Source: Candidatus Omnitrophota bacterium (GTDB lineage: Bacteria; Omnitrophota; Gorgyraeia; JAHIPI01). Taken from it: a DNA stretch of 38,118 nucleotides. The DNA is taken from contig JAFGFD010000135.1 in NCBI GenBank assembly GCA_016931215.1, forward strand, positions 1-38,118. The letters are read 5' to 3'. This document shows positions 2,709-36,806 of this stretch, piece after piece. Positions within the stretch are counted from its first letter, which is position 1; the number at the start of each line of letters is the position of its first letter. Under the pieces are notes generated by a model that was given only the letters and a program-made list of their open reading frames with translations, searched no databases and had not been told where the DNA came from. The translations under genes and the position numbers were made by a program.

Positions 2709-3445
2709 ACATACCTTTTTTTCAATATAAATATTGCGCTGGAACAGAGCCCCTTATTCGCGAGCAGCCTCACAGTGGGCACTATTGGAAATTCGGAAGG
2801 CGCATATAACAAAAGCGGGTCGACGGTCATGACCTCGAATCCCCCTTCTTCGAACAGGCCTTTCCAATTTCCTATTTTAAAGGCATTGAAGCAACTCATA
2901 AAGCCCTCACGCCAGCCGTGTCCGACAGGCAAGACCTTCTTCCAGCCGGTTCTTTGCCTCAGGTCCATCTCGGGGCGGTCCCCGCGTCTGGCCTTTCTGC
3001 TTTTCTTGAATAACTTTCCCAGGGCGTTATAGGCCTGCGCGGGTATCGACAACAAAAGCCATATGTTGGTCGGTACGGCAAAAGCATATACGCAGTCGCC
3101 TCTCCCTATCCTTTTAAGTTCCGCAAAGGCTTTTTTAACATCCTCGATATGTTCTAAAACATGGTTCGAAAAGACCAGATCAAAGCTATCCGATGCAAAC
3201 GGGGCGTCCTTTATGTCGCATACAACATGTGCCGTGCCATTTTCTGACCTCTCGCTGACATATATATCGGAAGTTATGACATTCCCGAGTCTCTTCAAAT
3301 ACGGGATCTGATATCCGTCACCCGAGCCGAACTCGAGTATTTGGATCCTTGTGCCTGTCTTCAAAAAGGGCTTGATCGCTCCGATTGCAAAATTCATCTC
3401 GGCCTTTCTCTTTCTCTCCCTATGTGCTGTTTCAAAATTTAGCAT
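2705..3445 (-). CDS. Class I SAM-dependent methyltransferase
   Basis: ORF 2705..3445: ILEFGSGDGYQIPYLKRLG and FDLVFSNHVLEHIEDVKKAFAELKRIG motifs. Confidence 0.85.
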   Translation of the reverse strand: MLNFETAHRERKRKAEMNFAIGAIKPFLKTGTRIQILEFGSGDGYQIPYLKRLGNVITSDIYVSERSENGTAHVVCDIKDAPFASDSFDLVFSNHVLEHIEDVKKAFAELKRIGRGDCVYAFAVPTNIWLLLSIPAQAYNALGKLFKKSRKARRGDRPEMDLRQRTGWKKVLPVGHGWREGFMSCFNAFKIGNWKGLFEEGGFEVMTVDPLLLYAPSEFPIVPTVRLLANKGLCSSAIFILKKRYV

Positions 3446-3460
3446 AATCCCAAAAGCCGT

Positions 3461-9889: not shown

Positions 9890-10799
9890 AATCCCTCTTT
9901 ATTTTATGTTCGTTGAAAAGATAATCCTCCAAAGCCTTCCGCCATTCCCTGGGAACCTCTCCCGTAACGTCGCAATATTTCTCGGTGTTCAATGCCGACA
10001 TGGGCGGCCGCGCCGCAGGTCTATTCAGCTCCTGAGACGTTATCGGCACAATCCTCACGTGGGTTCTATTGGCAATCTTCAGAATCTCTTCCGCATATTT
10101 AAACCACGAACAGGTTCCAGAGTTGCAGAAATGGTAAACTCCCCCCATTTCTTTATTCTTAGATGCTATGTCCATTAAATTACTGATAGCTTCCGATAAG
10201 TCTTTGGTAAAGGTCGGCGATCCGAATTGATCGAATACCACCCTCAATTCCTTATTGGCATCCGCTTTATCCAGTATAATGTCCACAAAATTCCGTCCGT
10301 ATTTACCAAAGAGCCAGCTGGTCCTCACGATGCAATATCTATACAATTCCTTCCGAACGGCCTCTTCGCCTTTCAATTTAGATAATCCGTATATATTAAC
10401 GGGTGCTGCCTTGTCATCTTCGAGGTAAGGTTCGCTTTTTGAGCCGTCAAAGATAAAATCCGTTGAAATGTAAAACATCAATGCGCCGGAGTTTTTGCAT
10501 CCCAGGGCAACGTTATGCGTACCTTCGTAATTCACGGCCATCGCCTTTTCTTTGTCCAGCTCGCAACTATCCACGTCTGTCCACGCGGCGGCATGGATTA
10601 CTACCTCAGGGTTTATCTTGTCTATCACATTTAAAATCTCGTTCCTATCCGTTATGTCACATTTTTTAAAAGTAATCGCGCCGCCCTTCGGACTCTTGTT
10701 TTCGATGATATCTATCCCCGTGATATCGCAAGAATCCTTCAGTGCAAGGATAAGATCCATGCCTAGCATGCCGCTTGAACCCGTTATGAGTACCTTCAC
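9867..10799 (-). CDS. rfbD: dTDP-4-dehydrorhamnose reductase
   Basis: ORF 9867..10799: MKVLITGSSGMLGMDL, VIHAAAWTDVDSCELDKEKAMAVNYEGTHNVA, FYISTDFIFDG, YGLSKLKGEEAV, RTSWLFGKYGRNFV. Confidence 0.93.
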   Translation of the reverse strand: MKVLITGSSGMLGMDLILALKDSCDITGIDIIENKSPKGGAITFKKCDITDRNEILNVIDKINPEVVIHAAAWTDVDSCELDKEKAMAVNYEGTHNVALGCKNSGALMFYISTDFIFDGSKSEPYLEDDKAAPVNIYGLSKLKGEEAVRKELYRYCIVRTSWLFGKYGRNFVDIILDKADANKELRVVFDQFGSPTFTKDLSEAISNLMDIASKNKEMGGVYHFCNSGTCSWFKYAEEILKIANRTHVRIVPITSQELNRPAARPPMSALNTEKYCDVTGEVPREWRKALEDYLFNEHKIKRDYVQGNKG

Positions 10800-10800
10800 A

Positions 10801-11817
10801 TCACACCTTTGTCTTGGAACTCTTATGGAGGCGTGCCGCTTCTGCCGATTTCCTAAGCGGCTCCCACCACGCCTTGTTATTTTTATACCATTCTACAGTC
10901 TCTTTTAGTGCGCCCTCGAATTCGTACTTGCTCTCCCATCCAATGGCCCTTATCTTGGATGCATCCATTGAATACCGCCTATCGTGCCCCGGTCTATCTT
11001 CCACAAATTCAATCAGGTCGTCTGACTTGCCCACGTACTCCAATATCTTCCTTGTCAATTCGATGTTGCTTATTTCGTCTCCTTTCGCAACATTGTAAAT
11101 CTCGCCGATCTCGCCTTTATGCAGCACTATATCGATTGCGGAGCAATGGTCCAAAACGAAGAGCCAGTCTCTGACATTCATCCCGTCGCCATATACAGGT
11201 AATTTCTTATCTTCAATTGCGTTCGTAATAAAAAGGGGTATGATCTTTTCGGGATACTGATAAGGCCCAAAATTATTCGAGCTTCGCATTATTATAGCCG
11301 GTAGTTTGTAGGTGGTATGGAATGACAAAGCCATCAAATCTGCGCTGGCCTTACTGGCCGAATAGGGACTCCCCGGATTTAGATTGCTCTTCTCGGTAAA
11401 ACTGCCCTTTTCTATGCTTCCGTACACCTCATCGGTCCCGATTTGAACAATACGGGGCACATTGTAATCCTTGGCAACCCTAAGCACGGTCAATAGGCCG
11501 TGTATGTTTGTCCGCACAAAATTATTCGGGTTCTTTATGGATCTGTCGACATGGCTCTCGGCCGCGCAATTCACAATGGCGTCGCACCCTTTCATCGCCT
11601 CCTTTACCACTTCCGTATCTTTGATATCGCCTTTTATGAAAGAATAGTTGTGGTTCTTTTCAATATCCCTTAAGTTCTTCGGATTACCGCAATATGTCAA
11701 TTTATCAAGATTGACAATTTCGTAATCGGGGTGCTTCTTGAGCATGTATCTTATGAAATTGGAACCGATAAAGCCCGCGCCGCCGGTCACCAATATTTTT
11801 TTCAATTTAATCTTCAT
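10801..11817 (-). CDS. rfbB: dTDP-glucose 4,6-dehydratase
   Basis: ORF 10801..11817: [76 protein letters not shown]. Confidence 0.95.
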   Translation of the reverse strand: MKIKLKKILVTGGAGFIGSNFIRYMLKKHPDYEIVNLDKLTYCGNPKNLRDIEKNHNYSFIKGDIKDTEVVKEAMKGCDAIVNCAAESHVDRSIKNPNNFVRTNIHGLLTVLRVAKDYNVPRIVQIGTDEVYGSIEKGSFTEKSNLNPGSPYSASKASADLMALSFHTTYKLPAIIMRSSNNFGPYQYPEKIIPLFITNAIEDKKLPVYGDGMNVRDWLFVLDHCSAIDIVLHKGEIGEIYNVAKGDEISNIELTRKILEYVGKSDDLIEFVEDRPGHDRRYSMDASKIRAIGWESKYEFEGALKETVEWYKNNKAWWEPLRKSAEAARLHKSSKTKV

Positions 11818-11818
11818 G

Positions 11819-12571
11819 TCAATCTTCTCCTTTAATCTTTCCTTGCCTCTTCCGGTCTCTTTTCTTGACCAGGTTACTCGCCTTGAGTAGTGAGTCGAAA
11901 GATGTGCCTGAGTCCGACCACCATCCGTTTAATATATCGTAGCGAAGCTCTTTTCTTTTTATATAGGCATTATTCACGTCCGTGATCTCGAGCTCATTCC
12001 TCTTTGAAGGTCTGAGGGTTTTTATGATGTCGAATACCTTTTCGTCATACATATAAACGCCGGTAACGATATAGTCCGATTTGGGGTTTTTGGGTTTTTC
12101 CTTTATCGACACGATCCTATTATGCTTTATTTCAACGACGCCGAATCTCCATGGGTCCTTGACCTTCTTTATCAAAATCCTGGCGCCGCGCGGTTGCTTC
12201 CTGAAATTTTCTATGTATCTTTTTATTCCTTTCTCCAATATATTATCGCCCAATATTACGACTATCTTTTCCCTGTCCGCGAAATGTTCCGCAAGCCTAA
12301 GGGCGTCGGCGATGCCGCCTTCCCCTTCTTGGTAAGTATAGTTGATATGTTTCAAGCCGAAGGCCTGGCCGTTGCCGAGCAACCTCAGGAATTCCCCGGC
12401 ACGGCTGCCGCCCGTTACCAAAAGTATATCTTTTATGCCCGCGTCTACAAGCGTCTGCAACGGGTAATAGATCATAGGCTTGGAATAGACGGGCAGAAGA
12501 TGTTTATTTGTTATCTTGGTCAAAGGGTTGAGCCTTGTTCCCAGACCACCTGCAAGTATCACGCCTTTCAT
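11819..12571 (-). CDS. rfbA: Glucose-1-phosphate thymidylyltransferase
   Basis: ORF 11819..12616; likely start MKGVILAGGLGTRLNPLTKITNKHLLPVYSKPMIYYPLQTL at 12571; NELEITDVNNAYI, GWWSDSGTSFDSL. Confidence 0.93.
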   Translation of the reverse strand: MKGVILAGGLGTRLNPLTKITNKHLLPVYSKPMIYYPLQTLVDAGIKDILLVTGGSRAGEFLRLLGNGQAFGLKHINYTYQEGEGGIADALRLAEHFADREKIVVILGDNILEKGIKRYIENFRKQPRGARILIKKVKDPWRFGVVEIKHNRIVSIKEKPKNPKSDYIVTGVYMYDEKVFDIIKTLRPSKRNELEITDVNNAYIKRKELRYDILNGWWSDSGTSFDSLLKASNLVKKRDRKRQGKIKGED

Positions 12572-15387: not shown

Positions 15388-15400
15388 AATTCTGTATTAG

Positions 15401-15470
15401 GTTTACGGTGTATGGTTCATGGTTTTCGGTGCATGGGAATTTTTTCCTGACACCGTAAACCATTAACCAG
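15401..15470. repeat. 7-bp-periodic imperfect repeat with inverted arms (GTTTACG family)
   Basis: gtttacg|gtgtatg|gttcatg|gttttcg|gtgcatg at 15401-15435, then ccgtaaa|ccattaa at 15453-15466, the reverse-complement register of the same heptamer. Confidence 0.85.
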
Positions 15471-15475
15471 TCTTC

Positions 15476-21529: not shown

Positions 21530-21540
21530 CGGTTCCTCTT

Positions 21541-21642
21541 TAGTATGGTGTACGGTTTAAGGTGTATGTTTCACGGCTACCGGTTGCTGGTTTATATTTT
21601 TTCTTTTCCGCTAACCAAAAACCGTGAACCATTAACCTAAGA
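21541..21642. repeat. 7-bp-periodic imperfect repeat with inverted arms (GTTTACG family)
   Basis: tagtatg|gtgtacg|gtttaag|gtgtatg|tttcacg|gctaccg|gttgctg then ccgctaa|ccaaaaa|ccgtgaa|ccattaa|cctaaga (21608-21642); overlaps the stop codon of the ROK gene. Confidence 0.85.
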
Positions 21643-24596: not shown

Positions 24597-24610
24597 ATCG
24601 ACTCCGTTAT

Positions 24611-24652
24611 GTCTTTAGTCGATAGTCAATGGACTATGGTCTATAGACTATG
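24611..24652. repeat. 7-bp-periodic imperfect repeat (GTCTATA family)
   Basis: gtcttta|gtcgata|gtcaatg|gactatg|gtctata|gactatg, six consecutive heptads just upstream of accD. Confidence 0.8.
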
Positions 24653-24738
24653 GAAAAATTTTAAATCCTTATACTCCAGAATTTTTATTGTCGGGACAAC
24701 TACTAATCCTATATGCTAAACGCTGTCTCTCTTGTTCT

Positions 24739-24767
24739 CCTGTGCCCTTGTGACTTGTGTTCTTGTG
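24739..24767. repeat. Short 7/8-bp-periodic degenerate repeat (CTTGTG family)
   Basis: cctgtgc|ccttgtg|acttgtg|ttcttgtg, adjacent to the corrinoid gene stop. Confidence 0.5.
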
Positions 24768-24791
24768 CGCTTATAACTGAAAATATTATAC

Positions 24792-25470: not shown

Positions 25471-25570
25471 AACGGGACATCTTCTTCGAAAATGTCCCGT
25501 TTAAATTCACCCACCGATGCTGCGGGACACTTTCGTTGAAAATGTCCCGTTTAAATTCACCCACCGATGC
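25471..25570. repeat. 50-bp direct tandem duplication (2 copies), each containing a palindrome (REP/RAYT-like)
   Basis: Copy 1 25471-25520 and copy 2 25521-25570 are identical over the last 30 bp and differ at 6 of the first 20. Each contains a 27-nt hairpin (25473-25499; 25523-25549). Confidence 0.9.
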
Positions 25571-26863
25571 TTAAAACTTGTTCATGACGAGGCCTGTCAA
25601 TAGCTTCGGATAAAAATATGTCGACTTATGAGGCATCCTATCGCCCGATCTCGCTATATTGCGCACCTCTATTACCTTGGTGGGTAGCTGGAAAAATGCC
25701 GCTTCGCACTCGCCGCTCTCCACCAGTTTTATTGCGTAATCTTCTTCCCGTGTATAGATAATATTTTTATCGTTGGATAGGTTCCGTTCGATGTTCAAGA
25801 TATGATCAAATATCAAAAAATGCAGAACCGTAACATTCAACCTTTTCCATTCACGCGATTTATCGACCTTTATTACTTCATCCAGCACGGATTCATCCTT
25901 CAATGTCAAGAGGTAGAGCCTCTTGTTCTTGAAATACATTCCGAATGCGTAAGCCTTTTTTTTCTGTTCAAGCCTTTTGAACAATTCATTCTTATCTTTA
26001 ACCGTACTTATGTAAAAATAAGGGCTCAGCTTCTTTTCAATCTCCGAAAAATCCATATTGCCCATATCCCTTACGATTCGATAGGTAGAGAATATGACCA
26101 GATTTTCATCGGTTAGATTGGAGAAGAACGCCATTACATTATCATAGAGCCTTGCCTTGATCCTTCCGAGACGCCTTCTCATCTCATCTCTATAGGCAAG
26201 CGCCACTTCATATCTATGGTGGCCGTCGGCGATAAAGACCTGTTTTGAATCCATGCATCTTTGTATCATCTCAATGCCTCGGGGGTCCGACAGTCTCCAC
26301 AATTTATGCCTTACCCCTTCAAAATGGATGTCGACGATAGGGGAGGCCTTCCGGGCATATCCCTTGATTATTCCTGTCACTTTATTGTGATCGTCCTGAT
26401 AAATGCAGAATATCGGGCTGGTATTGGCTTTTGTCTTCCTTATGAGATTGAGTCGGTCTGCCTTAGGTTTAGAAAAGGTATACTCGTGCGGAAGGACGAG
26501 GCTCGAAGAAGGGTCTTCTATCTTCATCACGGATATGAAGCCTATCCTTTTATTCAATTTACCTCTGTAGAGATACTGCTGCTCGTAGATATATATTGAA
26601 GATCGCTTATCCTGTTTCAATATGCCGTCTCTTAACCATTCAGTAAGATGATCGGCTGCTCTCGTGTACTTATTATTCCTGGGGGTGTCGCCGTCAAATT
26701 CCTTGCCTAAAATTATCCTTACGACATTATTGGGGTGGGTCTTGTATAATTCTTCCCTCATATGGTCGGAGATCACATCATAAGGCGGGGCTGATACAGC
26801 CGCAATATCTTCTATCAATTCAGTGTTGTATAAAATCCCCTTAAATGATTTTATCTTGGCCAT
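25571..26863 (-). CDS. DUF1015 family protein
   Basis: ORF 25571..26863: MAKIKSFKGILYN...AVSAPPYDVISDHMREELY, NVVRIILGKEF, VFIADGHHRYEVALAYRDEM - typical DUF1015 motifs. Confidence 0.92.
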   Translation of the reverse strand: MAKIKSFKGILYNTELIEDIAAVSAPPYDVISDHMREELYKTHPNNVVRIILGKEFDGDTPRNNKYTRAADHLTEWLRDGILKQDKRSSIYIYEQQYLYRGKLNKRIGFISVMKIEDPSSSLVLPHEYTFSKPKADRLNLIRKTKANTSPIFCIYQDDHNKVTGIIKGYARKASPIVDIHFEGVRHKLWRLSDPRGIEMIQRCMDSKQVFIADGHHRYEVALAYRDEMRRRLGRIKARLYDNVMAFFSNLTDENLVIFSTYRIVRDMGNMDFSEIEKKLSPYFYISTVKDKNELFKRLEQKKKAYAFGMYFKNKRLYLLTLKDESVLDEVIKVDKSREWKRLNVTVLHFLIFDHILNIERNLSNDKNIIYTREEDYAIKLVESGECEAAFFQLPTKVIEVRNIARSGDRMPHKSTYFYPKLLTGLVMNKF

Positions 26864-28779: not shown

Positions 28780-28786
28780 GATATTT

Positions 28787-28871
28787 AGCGTTTAGCGTAT
28801 AGCGTTTAGCGTATAGGTTTTTTGTTATAAGAATTACCTCCATGCGCTATCCGTTAGACGCTATACCCTAT
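28787..28871. repeat. 7-bp-periodic imperfect repeat with inverted arms (GTTTAGC/GTATAGC family)
   Basis: gcgttta|gcgtata|gcgttta|gcgtata (28788-28815), then gcgctat|ccgttag|acgctat|accctat (28844-28871) in reverse-complement register; fills the dnaK-dnaJ gap and overlaps the dnaK stop codon. Confidence 0.85.
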
Positions 28872-34538: not shown

Positions 34539-35696
34539 TTATTGCGGAAATTTCGGGATGCGTATCTTGCCTCTTGCCATAGATATCTCAAAGATTATAA
34601 TAATTACCAACATAAAAAATGCAAATACATAAGGAGTCCTGATGCCTAATGTGCCTGCCGTTACGCCTCCCACTAGGGGACCCAAAAACGCCCCCGCTCC
34701 TATAAAGCCCTCATGAAGGCCGCTCCTCTTACCCTTGTCGATGAAACCGTAGAGTGAGTAGAAGATACTGGAAAAATACGTCATGCCGCCGGATATTCCC
34801 AACAGGAAAAACGCTATCATAAGATAAACGACTCCGGAATTTCTCATTAGTATGGCAAGGGCTAAGAGGGCCAAGGCCTGACATGCGACCAACGGGGTAA
34901 GCCGATAATGCCATCTTGCCGTCTTTCCCAAAATAAAAAATACAAAAGTCTGCGCCAGCATCATTATAAAAATCAAAATTCCGATGAAGCCGCTTGAAAA
35001 ACCCAACTCGATGCCCAGCTTAGGAAATATGTTTCTCACCGTGCCTACTATGTACCAGCTTGCAAAATTGGCGAACCAGGCAATGTAGAGGTATCTCTCG
35101 GACTCCTTGGGCCTGTCGTTCTCGGTCTGGATGAAGACCTTGCGGGCGGGCTCATCCTCCGTCTCAGAGACGATCGGCTGCCTGAGAAGAATAAAAAATA
35201 CAATACATAAAAGAGTTACGCCGAAAAAGAAAGGCGCCTTATAATCTATCGAGAATAGGAAACCAGATATCAAAAACCCAAAAGTGAGTCCGGCGCACCA
35301 GAATATATTGAAGTATTTTAGCGAACGAAGGAGCGCCTTTTTATCCAGACCCTGAGAGAGCCATGACTGTATTGTCGGCCAAAAAAGAGCCATCGAGAAC
35401 GCAGCGGGGATATATAACGCAAATACACATTTGATATCATGCGACAAGGGAAGGATTAAGTATGAGACTACAAAAAGTACGCAGCCCGACAGGAGGACCG
35501 TCCTGCGGTTCATCCTATCGCTCAACCTTCCGAACGCGACTACCCCGGATGAATAGATCAATGCACCAAGGGCGCCAAAGAGTCCAAGGGTGAGAGAAGA
35601 AGCTTCGAATCTATATATAAGAAGGAGGGGCAACGAGAGTAGGACAACCCCTAAAGCAAAATCGGCTAAAAACGCGGCGATGTAAAAATTGATCAT
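34539..35696 (-). CDS. MFS transporter
   Basis: ORF 34539..35696; about 12 hydrophobic segments, AFGRLSDRMNRRTVLLSGCVLF (MFS loop motif), second-half LGISGGMTYFSSIFYSLYGFIDKGKRSGLHEGFIGAGAFLGPLVGG. Confidence 0.88.
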   Translation of the reverse strand: MINFYIAAFLADFALGVVLLSLPLLLIYRFEASSLTLGLFGALGALIYSSGVVAFGRLSDRMNRRTVLLSGCVLFVVSYLILPLSHDIKCVFALYIPAAFSMALFWPTIQSWLSQGLDKKALLRSLKYFNIFWCAGLTFGFLISGFLFSIDYKAPFFFGVTLLCIVFFILLRQPIVSETEDEPARKVFIQTENDRPKESERYLYIAWFANFASWYIVGTVRNIFPKLGIELGFSSGFIGILIFIMMLAQTFVFFILGKTARWHYRLTPLVACQALALLALAILMRNSGVVYLMIAFFLLGISGGMTYFSSIFYSLYGFIDKGKRSGLHEGFIGAGAFLGPLVGGVTAGTLGIRTPYVFAFFMLVIIIIFEISMARGKIRIPKFPQ

Positions 35697-35720
35697 TTAC
35701 TAGACTATAGTTTTATATAG

Positions 35721-35830
35721 GTTTATGGCTAACGGTGTATGGTTCATGGAATTTTGCTTCTCCGTTAACCGATAACCGCAAACCGTGAACCGGTCCTTTA
35801 AAACCGTAAACCATTAACCGCGAACCTAAG
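35721..35830. repeat. 7-bp-periodic imperfect repeat with inverted arms (GTTTACG family)
   Basis: gtttatg|gctaacg|gtgtatg|gttcatg (35721-35748), then ccgttaa|ccgataa|ccgcaaa|ccgtgaa|ccggtcc|tttaaaa|ccgtaaa|ccattaa|ccgcgaa (35762-35824). Confidence 0.9.
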
Positions 35831-35891
35831 TGCTATTTTTATTTGTATCCTGGTGACCTAGTGACTTTGCGCTTCTATAACAGAGTTTTTT

Positions 35892-35964
35892 CCGTAAACC
35901 GTATTATAGTCTATCGTCTATTGTCTATCGTCTATTGTCTATCGTCTATTGTCTATAGACCGAT
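35892..35964. repeat. 7-bp tandem repeat (GTCTATY)n
   Basis: gtctatc|gtctatt|gtctatc|gtctatt|gtctatc|gtctatt|gtctata|gaccgat (35909-35964), preceded by ccgtaaa|ccgtatt; abuts the SPOR gene stop codon. Confidence 0.95.
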
Positions 35965-36806
35965 TACGGATATATCTTAACATCATACCCGGCGTTCTTC
36001 AATCTCAGGGCCATATCTTCCGCATCGTTAAAATTATTATACTGCCCCACCCTTACTCTGTAGAAACGTTCTTCCCCGAGCAGAGTCGTGTGGATAGTCG
36101 CGTCGAAACCCTGTTTTTTCAATTCCTCGCTCAGCCTCTGCGCGTTCTTCCACTTACCGAAAGAGGCTACTTGAACACTGTAGGTCAAGAAATCAAAACT
36201 CCCTCCCGACAAAAGGTTCGCCTCTAGGCTGTAAGGATACGCCTTGGTCAACCGGTTGAAGTTCTCTTGGGCCTTGGTATCATCCCCCAATGCGGAATAG
36301 CATTCCCCCAGCCTGTAATACACTATATGGAGATATTGAGAATCCGGAAAATAACGCAGAATCTTTTCGTAATAATCGACGGCCGTTTTATAATTACCCT
36401 CCAGAAAATACGAATCGGCAAGCCCGATATAGGCGTTGTCCAGCAATTCCTCATTATCGCTGTGATTCACCACTGTCGAAAAACGGTTACGCGCCTCATC
36501 GAATCTGCCCATCTTCAACAGTGCCCTTCCCATAAGATGTTGAAGCTCGCTGTCCGTTTTGCTTGCATAGGACTGATAATGGCCTGCTGTTCTTAAGACC
36601 TCTTCATAATCCCCCTGAACGAATGCCTGCTCAGCTTTCTTCAAAGCCGAACTCTTATCGTACCCTCCGGAGCCGGACTCATCTTCGGAAGGGCCTCTAT
36701 CGAAGAATCCCCTGGCGCAATAAGCCGTAGAGAATGCGGCGTCCAATATAAACAAAGCGAGAACAGCCATTAACGCAAGGTTATAAATTATTCTCTTCTT
36801 ATCCAT
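35964..36806 (-). CDS. TPR-repeat protein with C-terminal SPOR domain (YbgF/CpoB-like envelope protein)
   Basis: ORF 35964..36806: N-terminal hydrophobic segment, LDNAYIGLADSYFLEGNYKTAVDYYEKILRYFPDSQYLHIVYYRLGECY, C-terminal YSVQVASFGKWKNAQRLSEELKKQGFDATIHTTLLGEERFYRVRVGQYNNFNDAEDMALRLKNAGYDVKIYP. Confidence 0.92.
   Translation of the reverse strand: MDKKRIIYNLALMAVLALFILDAAFSTAYCARGFFDRGPSEDESGSGGYDKSSALKKAEQAFVQGDYEEVLRTAGHYQSYASKTDSELQHLMGRALLKMGRFDEARNRFSTVVNHSDNEELLDNAYIGLADSYFLEGNYKTAVDYYEKILRYFPDSQYLHIVYYRLGECYSALGDDTKAQENFNRLTKAYPYSLEANLLSGGSFDFLTYSVQVASFGKWKNAQRLSEELKKQGFDATIHTTLLGEERFYRVRVGQYNNFNDAEDMALRLKNAGYDVKIYP

Follow-up and report, generated by a model that had tools for sequence, protein, structure and literature searches.

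Heptad hairpins in an Omnitrophota operon gap suggest a dispersed, lineage-specific repeat element

The window analyzed here, a stretch of 38,118 nucleotides, is the whole of contig C23 in a draft metagenome-assembled genome of a Candidatus Omnitrophota bacterium (1.6 Mb, 162 contigs, 81% complete). Toward its end lie, in order, a miaB-like gene, a gene for a TPR-SPOR protein, a gene for an MFS transporter, and miaA. The MFS protein is 61% identical to a protein of another Candidatus Omnitrophota metagenome-assembled genome, the only named relative found. The initial annotation described a 267-bp gap between the SPOR and MFS genes, in which different heptad families are stacked, and both points were borne out. 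Its description of the gap as built almost entirely of heptads was too strong, as heptads make up ~150 of the 267 bp, roughly 60%. A better reading is that several heptad hairpins make up a composite, in which a 5' GGTNNAY arm faces a 3' RTNNACC arm (family A), with GTCTAT units (family B) flanking. A search of the window against Rfam at the gathering threshold returned no match to a known structured RNA. The features of the locus are as follows.

34539..35696, minus strand: MFS transporter gene, downstream in the operon (PF07690, 1.8e-31)
35697..35963: SPOR/MFS gap, 267 bp; the orthologous gap is ~0-12 bp in three same-family genomes
35700..35710: short outer family B piece CTAGACTATAG, with GTC/GAC units at the equivalent position in sister copies L081, L032, L182, and L177
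35710..35723: non-repeat linker GTTTTATATAGGTT, common to sister copies
35720..35749, plus strand: family A left (5') arm, GGTTTAT GGCTAAC GGTGTAT GGTTCAT GG
35750..35761: AT-rich hairpin loop AATTTTGCTTCT
35762..35792, minus strand: family A right (3') arm CCGTTAACCGATAACCGCAAACCGTGAACCG
35802..35826, minus strand: second family A right-arm block AACCGTAAACCATTAACCGCGAACC, joined via a linker recurring elsewhere (linker3, 7 places)
35849..35864: two units with an 8-bp period, CCTGGTGA and CCTAGTGA
35892..35901, minus strand: isolated family A fragment CCGTAAACCG
35905..35960, plus strand: family B array, (GTCTATY)6 GTCTATA GAC
35964..36806, minus strand: TPR-SPOR protein gene, upstream in the operon (PF05036, 8.8e-15)

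The inverted-arm block of GGTTTAC type noted earlier is present, as one left arm and two right-arm blocks. The patch of CCTGGTGA and CCTAGTGA is also present; it had been taken for a heptad sub-family and instead repeats every 8 bp. It is possibly a remnant of an octad family (CTCCTGTG/CTCTTGTG) that is separate from the heptads, similar in type to the patch, and repeated elsewhere in the genome. The GTCTAT array has the top tandem repeats finder (TRF) score in the window bar one 50-bp repeat, with 86% matches at period 7 and 97% at period 14. Reported as seven clean GTCTATY units, it consists of six such units and a final GTCTATA. The strict alternation of C and T claimed for this array holds in the window, whereas the 14-bp higher-order unit drawn from it does not hold as a general rule: in a sister array, located at C4:1295-1362 (L012), the variable position runs C T C C T C T A. 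The alternation of GTCTATC and GTCTATT is a C/T change at one hypervariable phase. A 50-bp unit occurs twice (91% match) at 25473-25571, over the end of a B12-binding gene and the gap to a DUF1015 gene. In another genome (G294), GTCGATT and GTCAATC alternate at many dispersed loci in a 14-bp pattern resembling the window array.

Heptads are in large excess over chance, in the window and beyond it. Allowing up to 3 mismatches, GGTTTACGGTTTACGG has 12 matches in the window versus 0.26 expected. When 727 kb of the genome were scanned, tandem stretches that are nearly exact turned up at 39, 44, and 30 scan positions for periods 7, 14, and 21, respectively, and at almost none for other periods; period 7 and its multiples exceeded every other period from 2 to 30, and shuffled sequence gave no such stretch. 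About two thirds of the genome were covered in the analysis. Over 1.07 Mb, two-unit matches numbered 117 versus 7 in the reversed genome for family A, 52 versus 2 for family B, and 26 versus 4 for family C. With tandem 7-bp units above chance that are mainly intergenic and dispersed, the elements agree with the heptameric simple sequence repeats known from bacteria. Enrichment at a spacing of 7 bp was seen for six or more heptad cores, namely CGGTT (A), GTCTA (B), TAGCG (C), GCTCA/TAGCT (D), ACTGA (E), and ACTTG (F), and the heptads of the genome take the forms GGTNNAY, GTCNATN, AGCGNNN, AGCTCAT, and others. Family A is found too in the nearest genome examined (G001), together with ATCGTTT and GGTTCTC, and a third genome (G268) has a CTTCCGT array near GGTTNAC units.

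Across 286 genomes of the phylum Omnitrophota, the distribution of heptads is patchy within families. Two exact GGTTNAC units occur in 15 genomes, with strong signals confined to the present genome (20), G001 (32), and G268 (7). Three exact GTCNATN units occur in 53 genomes (at most 131 matches, in G169), and three exact AGCGTNN units in 75 (at most 100, in G005). Rich in heptads are G005, G181, G169, G204, G235, and G154, whereas most of the other surveyed genomes are poor in them. The reversed control is not neutral for GTCNATN because this motif read backwards is TANCTGN, near TAACTGA, and hits in some genomes may belong to the TAACTGA family. Viral contigs contain four tandem GTCNAT units in 111 stretches, and 14 of the 80 loci inspected (L200-L279) have inverted arms nearby; these arrays may stem from host DNA or may truly be carried by viruses. 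The open-access literature searched yielded no description of such repeats for the Omnitrophota. An assembly or polishing artefact is conceivable in a draft genome of so many contigs, and we give it almost no credence, because the array is only 52 bp long and its family is found again at numerous other loci as well as in many independently assembled genomes.

The arms of the elements are arranged with a fixed polarity. In family A, the GGT.. arm comes first and the ..ACC arm second; of the neighboring pairs within 70 bp, 19 are convergent and none is divergent. The same order prevails for AGCG heptads in the 286 genomes, with 535 convergent matches in 63 genomes (a column sum in which an element with overlapping units is counted repeatedly) versus 13 divergent matches in 10. 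Such convergent inverted arrays are shared with the heptamer pairs of Xanthomonas. Families can also be nested, as in G001, where an ATCGTTT outer arm surrounds a CGGTTTA inner arm. As RNA, the whole SPOR/MFS gap and the dnaK|dnaJ hairpin described below are predicted to be more stable than shuffled sequences (z = -3.05 and -3.88, respectively). We considered a selected RNA hairpin and rejected it, as the two arms complement each other at their variable positions no better than randomly re-paired arms do. Under a strict test, complementarity in 14 family A hairpins was 0.544 versus 0.604 for re-paired arms, a value that 95% of shuffles reach, and in 33 AGCG hairpins it was 0.596 versus 0.629. 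This lack of covariation speaks against a precisely selected structure, and we make no claim of one. A looser regular expression gave a stronger deficit in complementarity and mixed in chance matches; hence, we do not claim an avoidance of perfect palindromes either.

To describe how units differ from their neighbors, we counted unit-to-unit changes per phase in period-7 segments, with no core preselected. In family A, the changes by phase were 0/90, 0/87, 2/75, 13/75, 52/74, 21/77, and 32/82. In family C, AGCG is nearly fixed (11 changes in 162), and the remaining three phases hold 43 changes in 127. Family B changes at phases 4 and 7 and also at phase 2, the last probably in part due to a near self-complementary unit, and in the GTCTAT array of the window only phase 7 varies. 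The contrast between fixed and variable phases is less clear in family F. Since variation between units falls at fixed phases in most families examined, much of what looks like degeneracy belongs to the family itself. The earlier reading of a recent clean array beside older degenerate units is supported as to recent change and is not the best one where it takes degeneracy as a sign of age. The fixed core suggests that something recognizes the unit every 7 nt.

These counts bear on the view that the gap contains ordinary 7-bp simple repeats, each grown independently in place by slippage, as Mrazek and colleagues proposed for heptamers, with inverted arms arising by template switching inside hairpins. 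Two papers (PMC4679880 and PMC4692102) describe heptamers as more common in many prokaryotes than any other long simple repeats, cite an over-representation of period 7 in many bacterial genomes, and give slippage as the standing hypothesis. The arm lengths here also change in 7-bp steps, and no mover was found. Even mutation of slipped copies would, however, spread changes evenly over the unit; the uneven changes observed call either for a core under constraint or for copying that makes specific errors. The strict polarity of the arms and the recurrence of cores in different families of the phylum also argue against slippage in place.

The non-repeat linkers weigh further against slippage. 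The linker CTATAGTTTTATATCGGTTTATGG occurs within 3 mismatches at six loci of the genome, GAACCGATCTTTTAAAACCGTAAACC at seven places, and AAAAATCCTTAGGTTTTCAAGTTTTTGTCC within 4 mismatches at four places; overall, conserved linkers recur at 3-7 places each. All three were absent from the reversed genome and from the portion of G001 that was searched. Segments of the gap match other loci of the genome at 75-94%. In an alignment of six copies with near-identical linkers, the left arm has 4 units in the window, 3 in L035, and 2 in L081, L182, and L086. Shared linkers together with unequal arms indicate related elements at unrelated loci that differ by whole heptads. Given linkers conserved at unrelated loci, we regard independent slippage as possible and rather doubtful as the whole explanation.

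At the orthologous sites of relatives, the elements are absent. With the gene order shared, the SPOR|MFS gap of 267 bp corresponds to 5 bp in G001 and to about 12 and about 0 bp in G002 and G003, respectively, and four other gaps of the window are occupied by similar elements.

15388..15475: gap between genes for a DegT-family aminotransferase and a glycosyltransferase, filled by a family A hairpin
21530..21636: family A hairpin between a ROK gene and a transaldolase-family gene (fsa), 107 bp; no gap in G001
24597..24791: family B and octad composite between a B12-binding gene and accD, 195 bp versus 37, 30, and 17 bp in relatives
28780..28867: AGCGNNN hairpin between dnaK and dnaJ, 88 bp; 8 bp in G001 and about 30 bp in another relative

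The comparison works in both directions: two heptad gaps of 234 and 99 bp in G001 correspond to 3 and 22 bp in this genome. Of 50 orthologous adjacent gene pairs, none shares a heptad gap; the comparisons with G002 and G003 involve few loci only. Together with copies that differ by whole 7-bp units, the empty sites support the recent change proposed in the initial annotation. They show that positions have turned over since the genera split, which does not by itself demonstrate transposition. As even the closest relative examined has only about 57% protein identity, no insertion is caught in the act, and single sites could have grown slowly in place. We found no target-site duplication, conserved termini, or associated transposase, at a divergence from the empty-site relatives too high to define the ends (terminal inverted repeats with a target-site duplication) by which a MITE or insertion-sequence derivative would be recognized.

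Within the genome, 62 of 91 elements lie outside open reading frames of at least 150 aa, and several of the remainder are single two-unit matches that may be due to chance. The median distance of elements is 15 bp to stop codons versus 37 bp to start codons. A preference for a particular gene orientation was considered and rejected, since the context equals the background (43/46 co-directional versus 539/587). A fixed core at a 7-nt pitch and sites between operon genes would be expected of binding sites for a global DNA- or RNA-binding regulator, for which there are precedents in the proposals made for the TAACTGA repeats of Beggiatoaceae and the elements of Geobacter metallireducens. By analogy, the heptads here might be such sites; we consider this improbable, as their positions are not conserved between related genomes, one genome holds several unrelated cores, and their orientation context is that of the background.

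Some heptads lie in frame within genes. At L032 (C24) 10167-11971, three consecutive pseudopilin-like genes (encoding T2SSG, an N_methyl protein, and T2SSJ) have in-frame leader heptads upstream of the N-methylation motif. In three relatives, the part that matches the T2SSG-type protein starts at its residue 36 or 37, so a leader of 35 residues appears to be lineage-specific. These leader heptads fit a harmless settlement where sequence is free to vary. At L050 1090-2187 (minus strand), a membrane protein with no match in Pfam has an N-terminal leader, SQFSVFSFQSSVFSYQSS, that is encoded by family E heptads, and at L019 1851-2744, a polysaccharide deacetylase gene has an in-frame stretch of family D heptads (TDIAHSSSLIAHSK...PDIARSSSLIAHSK).

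Short dispersed intergenic palindromes are also typical of REP, BIME, and REPIN sequences, as described in PMC3116915, where they are not built of tandem 7-bp units and depend on a RAYT, a Y1 transposase. This genome has one Y1_Tnp gene, and G001 and G268 have several. Nevertheless, Y1_Tnp genes occur in 12 of 15 genomes searched, some of them without GGTTNAC matches, and do not clearly track the abundance of heptads; the local gene is flanked by another palindrome (GGGGACGG/CCGTCCCC) and not by heptads. We found no link between a RAYT and the heptads, consider movement by one very unlikely, and reject a RAYT/REP origin. The GGGGACGG/CCGTCCCC palindromes on either side of this RAYT-like gene, at L034 (C26) 3121-3447, form a separate REP-like family.

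Several known repeats resemble these elements in part. Cyanobacteria have short tandemly repeated repetitive (STRR) heptanucleotides, likewise with several families in one genome; a hairpin architecture with linkers as seen here was not found described for STRR in the literature searched. Heptanucleotides of Calothrix are cited in PMC4692102. The closest known system is the convergent GGGANTN pairs of Xanthomonas, and the elements here are a variant of known heptameric bacterial repeats. In the Xanthomonas heptamers (GGGANTN, for example GGGAATC), positions 1-4 and 6 are conserved, and 5 and 7 are variable; two arrays are often convergent (70 cases in Xcc and 75 in Xac); and the heptamers are intergenic and dispersed, with no mobile element found and 83% sharing their position between two sister species (PMC4692102). 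A 7-bp unit with fixed and variable positions, convergent arms, and intergenic dispersal are thus common to both. In Xanthomonas there is one G-rich, quadruplex-prone family whose positions are largely shared between sister species, whereas here several families that are not quadruplex-forming are joined in one element with shared linkers, no position is shared between related genera, and the G-rich GGGANTN unit was not found.

The TAACTGA repeats of Beggiatoaceae, Cyanobacteria, and Bacteroidetes are direct repeats, with one indirect set beside 169 others, and lie mostly just upstream of start codons (PMC4679880). They too are intergenic heptamers, patchy across lineages, and close in sequence to family E (ACTGANN). 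The elements here are instead hairpins of fixed polarity nearer to stop codons, and they do not belong with TAACTGA (MacGregor 2015), as family E is minor and the inverted arrangement predominates in family A. According to passages of PMC2700814, Geobacter metallireducens has heptanucleotide elements (GGGACCG, and the MTYCTGA class 3 sites) of 4-5 tandem heptads dispersed between and within genes, as here, some of them depicted in fold-back pairs; they differ in having other cores and in being read as regulator sites, and no empty-site test is described in those passages.

Taken together, we lean toward reading the gap as a composite of dispersed, palindromic heptad hairpin elements that are lineage-specific and lengthen in 7-bp steps. 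An element would begin with a 5' arm of 7-bp units from one family, pass through an AT-rich loop, and end in a 3' arm of units in reverse complement, with different families nested or side by side. Copies may spread within the genome by transposition in trans, or by template switching and end repair via heptad hairpins. They would settle where they do little harm, that is, just after stop codons, between co-transcribed genes, and in the leader regions of pseudopilins, and later lengthen or shorten through 7-bp slippage. The SPOR-MFS transcript would carry a stable hairpin, which might affect the processing of the mRNA.

Far more tentatively, heptad hairpins could be a distinct dispersing class, common though patchy in Omnitrophota, for which a trans-acting factor reads the core every 7 nt and only the convergent polarity is kept. 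Many sequence families might then have evolved under this one 7-nt rule, and Xanthomonas GGGANTN, Beggiatoa TAACTGA, and the Geobacter heptads would be members of the class as well. The dominance of 7-bp repeats in many bacterial genomes has been a standing puzzle, to which polymerase slippage is the usual answer. Plain slippage does not predict three testable facts, namely a fixed core with hypervariable phases, one prevailing polarity across a phylum, and linker-sharing elements at sites that are empty in relatives. If such a factor were found, it would link orphan heptad families that have been described separately in different phyla.
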